Assembly (NCBI GenBank): GCA_030426685.1
Contig: JAUHYC010000002.1
Coordinates: 1-64,000, forward strand
Source: Alphaproteobacteria bacterium
Lineage (GTDB): Bacteria > Pseudomonadota > Alphaproteobacteria > Rhodobacterales > Rhodobacteraceae
DNA: 64,000 bases
Reading direction: 5' to 3'
Part shown: one piece after another, positions 54,280 through 56,810 of the stretch
Layout: each line of letters opens with the position of its first letter
How positions within the stretch are numbered: position 1 is the stretch's first letter
Position numbers and translations under genes: made by a program
The notes under the pieces: generated by a model
What the model saw: only the letters and a program-made list of their open reading frames with translations
Told to the model about the DNA's origin: nothing
Database searches by the model: none

Positions 54280-54567
54280 TTATTTCGCAGGTTCGGTCTT
54301 GTTCAAAACCTGTGCGATGGTCGTCTTGACCACACGAACCTTGACGCCCTCGGCGATCTCGACCTCGATTTCGTTGTCGCCTTCCTTGACCTTGGACACT
54401 TTGCCGATCAGCCCACCCTGAGTGACAACCTGATCGCCGCGGCGCACGGCTTCGACCATGGCCTGATGTTCCTTTACCTTCTTCTGCTGCGGACGGATCA
54501 GCAGGAAATACATGATCGCGAAGATCAGGATCAGCGGGAGAAACTGGGCGATTGCGCCACCTTCCAT
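54280..54567 (-). CDS. yajC: Preprotein translocase subunit YajC
   Basis: Small accessory protein of SecDF. 95 residues with one helix (IAQFLPLILIFAIMYFLLIRPQQKK) then a conserved soluble part (GDQVVTQGGLIGKVSKV, EGVKVRVVKTTI). ATG 54567 chosen because it begins the conserved part and is followed by GAGGGG-like context; the longer frame is not similar. Confidence 0.95.
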   Translation of the reverse strand: MEGGAIAQFLPLILIFAIMYFLLIRPQQKKVKEHQAMVEAVRRGDQVVTQGGLIGKVSKVKEGDNEIEVEIAEGVKVRVVKTTIAQVLNKTEPAK

Positions 54568-54720
54568 GGGATATTCCTTTGTTTTGGTGATGCGGAGGGC
54601 TCTCCGCAAATTTGGCCGGAACCTATGCTTTGAAACCGGCGTTTGCAAGCGAAGGCGTCCTAGATCGAGAGAACAGACCCGCAGGTTTGCCCCGAGGCGT
54701 TGCAGATATGTTCTAGGCAG

Positions 54721-55344
54721 GTGGTCTCAGTTGAATTTGATCACCCGGAAGGAGGCCCAATATTTCAATTAATCCAAACCCTTGGCCGGTTTTCCTGTCT
54801 GTTTGCAGCGACTGTCTTGATGATCTTACTTGCAGCATCCGCCTGGGCGCAGAACACCCCCTCGGGTACTCCCACCACTGAAGAGACGCAATCGGGCACT
54901 TTCAGGGCACCCATCAACGTGGACGGTGATACGCTGCACCATCTGCGTGGCTCAAGCGCCTTGCCCGCCACCGAGCGGGTCGTGCCAGTGCAGAACAAGA
55001 TCATCGAAATCGTAGAAGCGTCCATTGCGGAGCAGGTTTCCATAACCCTCGAGGATTCGGAAATCGGCATTCGAATATTCGCCGACGGCACTCGGGTGTC
55101 GGTTGTCACCGATGTGGATCCCGATCTGGACCAGATGGACCTGAACGTTCTTAGAGTGTTGCACGGTGACGCGACCAAGCAATCCATCGAAAGTTATCGC
55201 ACAAACAGGCCCGAACAGGTCGGCGTGTCGGGTGCGATTGAAGCCGCGGCATGGACCATTGGTTTCGCGTTGTTCATCATGGTCACTAATTGGCTGCATC
55301 GCAACGGCGTTGCGGTGTTCATGAAAATGATGTGCAGATTATGA
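54721..55344 (+). pseudogene. Truncated MscS-type channel: N-terminal periplasmic domain only
   Basis: The frame encodes a signal-like hydrophobic stretch (CLFAATVLMILLAASAWAQ), then a roughly 130-residue periplasmic domain (PINVDGDTLHHLRGSSALPATERVVPVQNKI, ending SIESYR) that resembles the N-terminal domain in front of some MscS mechanosensitive channels, then one membrane helix, then a stop. The pore helix and the C-terminal vestibule are absent. A perfect Shine-Dalgarno GGAAGGAGG (54747-54755) is followed by ATA at 54760 instead of ATG, and the only upstream starts are GTG/TTG. A degenerate channel gene is the likeliest reading; a short functional membrane protein cannot be excluded. Confidence 0.55.
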
Positions 55345-55517
55345 CGCCTTCCTACATGGCAGACCCACCTAAGCCGAAAATCCCTGCGGAGGAGGGGAAT
55401 GGCCATCTGGCGCATGAAACACACGGGGACGCGGATAAGTCGTAACCGGTGCTACACCCTGCCTTTCATATGGTGCATAAGCGGTTTCAGTGATTCACGC
55501 ATTTAAGGATCTGAGAC

Positions 55518-56810
55518 ATGCACGACATCCGCGCCATTCGCGAAAACCCAGCCGCCTTCGACGCCGCCCTCGCGCGCCGTGGGGACGCGCCGGTGTCGTC
55601 AGACCTGCTGAGGCTGGATGAAAGCCGCCGCGCCAAGATTCTGGCCGCTGAAACGGCGCAGGCCGAACAGAACAAGGCTTCGAAGGAAGTTGGCGCCGCC
55701 AAAGCACGCGGGGATGAGGACGAGTTCCAGCGACTGCGCGCTTTGGTGGCCGAAAAAAAGGCCGAAATCGCCCGGATGCAGACCGAAGCCAAGGACCTGG
55801 ACGCGTTGCTGACCGATCAACTGATCGGTATTGCCAACCTGCCCGCTGAAGATGTGCCAGAGGGTGCCAACGAGAATGACAATGTCGAGGTCTCGCGCTG
55901 GGGAACGCCGCGCGAGCTGGATTTTGCACCCAAGGAGCATTTTGAGATCGAAGCCGTACAGAACGGCATGGATTTCGAGACCGCCGCGAAACTCTCTGGT
56001 TCGCGCTTCGTGCTGTTGTCTGGCGGTGTCGCCCGCATTCATCGTGCACTGGCGCAGTTCATGCTGGACACGCATATCAACGAAAACGGCCTGACCGAGG
56101 TGAACGGCCCGGTTCTGGTGCTGTCCGAGATGATGCAGGGCACCGGCCAGTTACCGAAATTCGGCGAGGACAGCTATCAGACCCGCGAAGGCTGGTGGCT
56201 TATCCCGACCTCCGAGGTCTCGCTGACCAATATCGTCAACGACACGATGATCGAGGAAAGCTACCTGCCCCGCCGCTATACAGCACATTCGCTGTGCTTC
56301 CGGTCTGAGGCCGGCAGCGCGGGCAAGGATACGCGCGGGATGCTGCGTCAGCACCAGTTCGAAAAGGTCGAGATGGTCTCGATCACCCATCCCGACAAAT
56401 CGGATGACGAACAAAAGCGCATGTTGCGCTGTGCCGAAGGGATTCTTGAAAAACTGGGCGTCCCTTACCGCACCGTGATCTTATGCACCGGCGACATGGG
56501 CTTTGGTGCGCGCCGCACCTTTGACATCGAGGCTTGGCTGCCCGGACAGGACACCTATCGCGAGATCAGCTCAGTCTCGACCTGCGGCGATTTTCAGGCC
56601 CGCCGCATGAACGCGCGATTCCGACCCGAAGGTGGCGGCAAACCGGAATATGTCCACACGCTGAATGGCTCGGGCCTGGCGGTCGGGCGTTGCCTGATCG
56701 CGGTGTTGGAAAACGGTCAGAACGCGGACGGGACAGTCACCCTGCCCGAGGTGCTGGCCCCCTATTTGGGCGGCAAGCTAACCCTGCAGACAGACGGCTC
56801 GCTGGCATAA
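55518..56810 (+). CDS. serS: Seryl-tRNA synthetase
   Basis: Charges tRNA-Ser with serine. 430 residues: N-terminal coiled-coil arm (residues about 30-105, [24 protein letters not shown]... [16 protein letters not shown]), class II motif 2 [26 protein letters not shown] and motif 3 near [25 protein letters not shown] lies before the ATG. Normal length. Confidence 0.97.

Follow-up and report, generated by a model that had tools for sequence, protein, structure and literature searches.

The region between yajC/secD and serS in the window analysed here (a stretch of 64,000 nt from a draft genome of the genus Ruegeria, Rhodobacteraceae) is very probably a pseudogene derived from an MscS-type mechanosensitive channel gene of Ruegeria. 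Comparison with its relatives shows a 978-bp in-frame deletion, a deletion of a single nucleotide, a change of the start codon from ATG to ATA and three changes in an upstream TATAGT element. A sequence-only reading of the same DNA had proposed either a decaying channel gene or a small protein kept as a sensor or inhibitor of other channels; the first proposal is supported by the several separate lesions and by the finding that 50 of 53 other genomes of the genus carry the channel intact and in synteny.

Conservation of the channel locus

A homologue of the channel, searched for with the N-terminal part, occupies this locus in 51 of the 53 other same-genus genomes (52 of 54 with the window genome). 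At all 51 loci yajC lies upstream on the opposite strand, and serS follows less than 200 bp downstream of the channel at 50 of them; the 51st is the broken locus L071 of genome G050, where serS is also found after the channel. One uninterrupted, ATG-initiated frame of 551-555 aa was read at 50 of the 51 loci, the remaining one being again L071, which was excluded from all counts of intact relatives. L034, where the exact C-terminal motif is absent yet the gene is full length, was counted among them. The comparison with the gene upstream of serS in relatives, which the sequence-only reading had suggested as a check, thus returned an intact channel at 50 of the 51 loci read. In terms of both sequence and position, the remnant in the window is orthologous to this intact gene.

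The MscS beta domain (PF00924, residues 362-428 of L002) and C-terminal domain (PF21082, residues 439-520 of L002) are both present in the two full-length relatives that were scanned, L002 and L051, and hydropathy analysis of two relatives, L002 and L008, revealed four helices after the signal peptide. A structure predicted for an intact relative from 3 aligned sequences had a mean pLDDT of 40.7 and was discarded. A flanking-gene tree places L002 as sister to the window sequence, with a support of only 0.84; this tree was built without 14 loci added later and without genomes G016 and G059. Among the intact Ruegeria channels, that of Ruegeria arenilitoris HKCCD9148 (L051, NZ_WPZO01000001.1) has the same yajC-serS position as the remnant and is 50% identical to it over residues 1-202. 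Intact relatives are 551-555 aa long, start with ATG and carry a TATAGT-like element, whereas the remnant shows none of these three features, and it likewise lacks both of the domains carried by L002 and L051.

Content and lesions of the remnant

The features of the remnant, all on the plus strand, are as follows.

54736..54741, plus strand: TTTGAT, replacing the TATAGT element (putative -10 box), from the alignment with 10 relatives
54747..54755, plus strand: relic Shine-Dalgarno sequence GGAAGGAGG, aligned with that of the relatives at equal spacing
54760..54762, plus strand: ATA where the start codon ATG has been lost (ATG in 10 of 10 aligned relatives)
54763..55301, plus strand: 5' part with signal peptide, putatively periplasmic domain and first membrane helix, from 65% identity to L002 residues 3-182 and from hydropathy
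55293..55304, plus strand: deletion scar CTGCATCGCAAC with 978 bp lost, between two CTGCAYCG-like sites
55302..55445, plus strand: 3' end with the C-terminal tail and TAA stop (55443-55445), frame-shifted, from alignment; 55320-55442 correspond to L002 residues 514-554 at 80% identity
55342..55344, plus strand: premature TGA produced by the 1-nt frameshift, from the open reading frame and alignment with relatives

When the window genome was searched with L002, the match at this locus fell into two pieces, residues 3-182 and 514-554, so that both ends of the remnant match the intact channel. The missing middle was not found elsewhere in the assembly, where the five other matches to L002 are only 18-24% identical. 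The gap between the two pieces is exactly 978 bp, i.e., 326 codons and in frame, in comparison with each of the 10 aligned relatives, and with it PF00924 has been lost entirely, together with most of PF21082 and three of the four membrane helices. About 20 bp downstream of the large deletion, a further deletion of 1 nt at approximately 55320-55322 shifts the frame and therefore leads to the premature TGA at 55342-55344. These disabling lesions, namely the 978-bp deletion, the frameshift and the change of ATG to ATA, are absent from the relatives, with 50 of 51 loci intact.

The ATA frame lies within a 214-codon open reading frame (54700-55344) that ends at the premature TGA. Hydropathy of the remnant showed two hydrophobic helices, the first of them signal-peptide-like, and the domain between them would be periplasmic. 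The order of signal peptide, domain, one helix and stop described by the sequence-only reading was accordingly recovered, as was the absence of the pore, with one helix and a signal peptide left where intact channels have four and a signal peptide. The interval that it had assigned to the gene, 54700-55345, holds a real frame, but the gene continues out of frame beyond it in the tail at 55302-55445. As to membership of the MscS family, which is marked by PF00924 together with PF21082, no Pfam family was matched by the remnant, and searches of NCBIfam and PDB sequences returned nothing of weight (best E-values 0.13 and 0.2). The helix that appears to line the pore, assigned from its place just before PF00924, is also missing.

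Slippage or recombination across a pair of short, similar sites may have produced the large deletion. Both CTGCAYCG-like sites encode Leu-His-Arg in most relatives (at residues 179 and 505 in L002), and they are spaced by 978 bp in all 48 relatives that could be parsed out of 50, L063 and L067 being the two unparsed ones. Around the two sites, L002 has an exact match of up to 8 nt; among the 48 relatives, this longest match reaches at least 7 nt in 10 and is at most 6 nt in the other 38. As a background, 1.2% of 28,122 equally spaced sites elsewhere in the gene have a match of at least 7 nt. The microhomology at the scar is thus suggestive, and only suggestive, of a deletion across a short repeat.

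The start region

The relic Shine-Dalgarno sequence GGAAGGAGG is followed by CCCA and then by ATA, with the same spacing as in intact relatives. Two statements of the sequence-only reading, that a perfect ribosome-binding sequence stands 4 nt before the ATA and that this ATA takes the place of an ATG, were therefore correct, and the start codon is ATG in all 50 intact relatives. The element further upstream reads TATAGT in 46 of these 50, TATATT in 3 and TATACT in 1, and the TTTGAT of the window differs from TATAGT at three positions. We infer that TATAGT serves the channel gene as its -10 box. A scan of 54560-55540 for promoters and terminators found none, a result that says little, as 0.6 and 0.8 hits, respectively, were expected by chance.

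Alternative starts at TTG 54700 and GTG 54721 were rejected, because the stretch upstream of the ATG is non-coding in relatives. One in-frame stop was observed in 15 of 51 same-genus matches to the 54700-55344 query, and since these loci are intact from the ATG onward, the stop lies upstream of the ATG.

The letters TTGCAGATATGTTCTAGGCA at 54700-54719, which include the TTG at 54700, belong to a conserved motif upstream of the gene. This motif, TTGCAGATATG, is present in 35 of the 50 intact relatives, with the whole 20 letters in 6, and may be a regulatory site in the interval that separates yajC from the channel gene.

Selection on the remnant

Codon models were fitted to 10 of the 11 aligned sequences, namely the window sequence and those of 9 relatives (L034 was left out), on a fixed tree simplified from the flanking-gene tree and with the signal peptide excluded. 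Over 151 codons, omega was 0.115 on the window branch and 0.077 elsewhere, a difference that is not significant (2dlnL 0.89), and over 184 codons including the tail the values were 0.122 and 0.094 (2dlnL 0.64). When five other terminal branches served as foreground, omega ranged from 0.052 to 0.145 (151 codons), and the intact L003, with 0.145 on its own branch, stands above the window branch. Because omega is low and omega = 1 over the whole window branch was rejected (2dlnL 24.9), most substitutions on this branch fell under purifying selection. Fixed omega values of 0.25 and above were also rejected (2dlnL at least 4.5), so that the neutral share of the branch would be no more than about a sixth, which points to either recent loss or continued constraint. 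The codon result fits recent inactivation without proving it, and it fits a kept short protein as well.

Changes at conserved positions were also counted. Of 66 near-invariant columns, defined as those in which at least 94% of the other sequences share a residue and counted without the first 32 alignment columns, 11 are changed in the remnant, the highest number among 51 sequences, followed by 7 of 66. At strictly invariant columns the difference is small, with 5 of 38 changed in the remnant and 4 of 37 in the next sequence, the intact L024. In the only helix after the signal peptide, ILWLH has become TNWLH, with Asn in place of a Leu that is found in all nine relatives compared.

Alternative explanations

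Three observations speak against decay: the Shine-Dalgarno sequence is intact, the N-terminal frame is free of stops and relaxation of selection is not significant. The same observations, along with a frame open to 55344 and the retention of the signal peptide and one helix, favour the alternative that the remnant is still translated (from ATA 54760 or GTG 54721) and kept as a membrane-anchored periplasmic sensor or inhibitor of channels. We consider this very unlikely, given that the start has been changed despite being ATG in every intact relative, and that the TATAGT-like element has been changed despite being kept in all 50 of them (46 exact, 4 with one-base variants). A polar Asn in the sole remaining helix downstream of the signal peptide, the 11 changed near-invariant columns and a second lesion, the 1-nt deletion, that removes the C-terminal tail also argue against it. 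Moreover, no short form was found in the relatives read, either among the 51 same-genus loci or in a family sample of 198 genomes, of which 10 gave a match, the window genome included, with the 9 other matches lying in open frames of at least 491 aa. A widespread short form was rejected on these grounds, and a short form with a conserved start in relatives, which by the sequence-only reading's own account would count against its interpretation, was looked for and not found. The proposal of a small protein kept as a sensor or inhibitor thus gained no positive support, in view of the missing short form and of the changed start and putative -10 box. A more specific variant, in which the pore-less domain and helix left by the deletion act as a small regulator of the remaining MscS channels, translated at a low level from ATA by virtue of the strong Shine-Dalgarno sequence, is less probable still.

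An assembly or sequencing error in a strain that has an intact channel is, in our estimate, the least probable explanation. The assembly is indeed a draft, with 103 contigs and a completeness of 95.9%, but the missing middle is absent from the rest of it, the lesions are several and of different types, and the sequence on either side of the scar diverges from relatives in its own way. Repeats of approximately 8 nt would not be long enough to make an assembly collapse.

Losses elsewhere in the genus

An intact copy of the channel is absent in 4 of 54 genomes, namely the window genome, G050, G016 and G059. In G050 (L071, G050:C1:2316800-2319600), the channel matches fall into three pieces in frames 0, 1 and 0. 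Like the remnant, L071 lies beside serS at this locus and holds the channel gene in broken form; unlike it, L071 is broken by frameshifts, and because its lesions differ from those of the window, it is probably an independent inactivation. No channel match was found between yajC and serS in G016, and none in G059, where neither yajC nor secD occurs in the stretch read around serS.

Between yajC and serS of G016 (L056, G016:C14:63500-69500), an open reading frame with a SET domain (PF00856, E 1.7e-10) was observed at 2443-2949 on the minus strand. In addition, a second and more distant copy of the channel (37-41% identity) is located elsewhere in 15 of the 54 genomes (L025-L030 and others). In G017 (L027), this copy has an open frame of only 334 aa and is separated from the neighbouring PF00924 match by approximately 2.8 kb, as compared with approximately 0.3 kb in G019; for both reasons, the G017 copy may be disrupted too.

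Implications

Judged from its sequence, the remnant would yield no channel and probably no stable protein, and its inactivation appears to be recent when set against the divergence from the closest species sampled. Other MscS-type channels still present in the genome presumably make the loss tolerable, with 6 PF00924 matches in the window genome and 5-11 across the 54 genomes. No paper in the library searched joined Ruegeria, mechanosensitive channels and pseudogene. The case is one of ordinary gene decay, a pseudogene of a known channel. The appropriate annotation is a pseudogene extending over the out-of-frame tail as far as 55445; neither a short MscS-domain protein nor a case of ATA initiation should be recorded here. 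Beyond annotation its importance is small: at most, together with the three other genomes of the 54 that are without an intact copy, it shows that the channel is dispensable in the genus.
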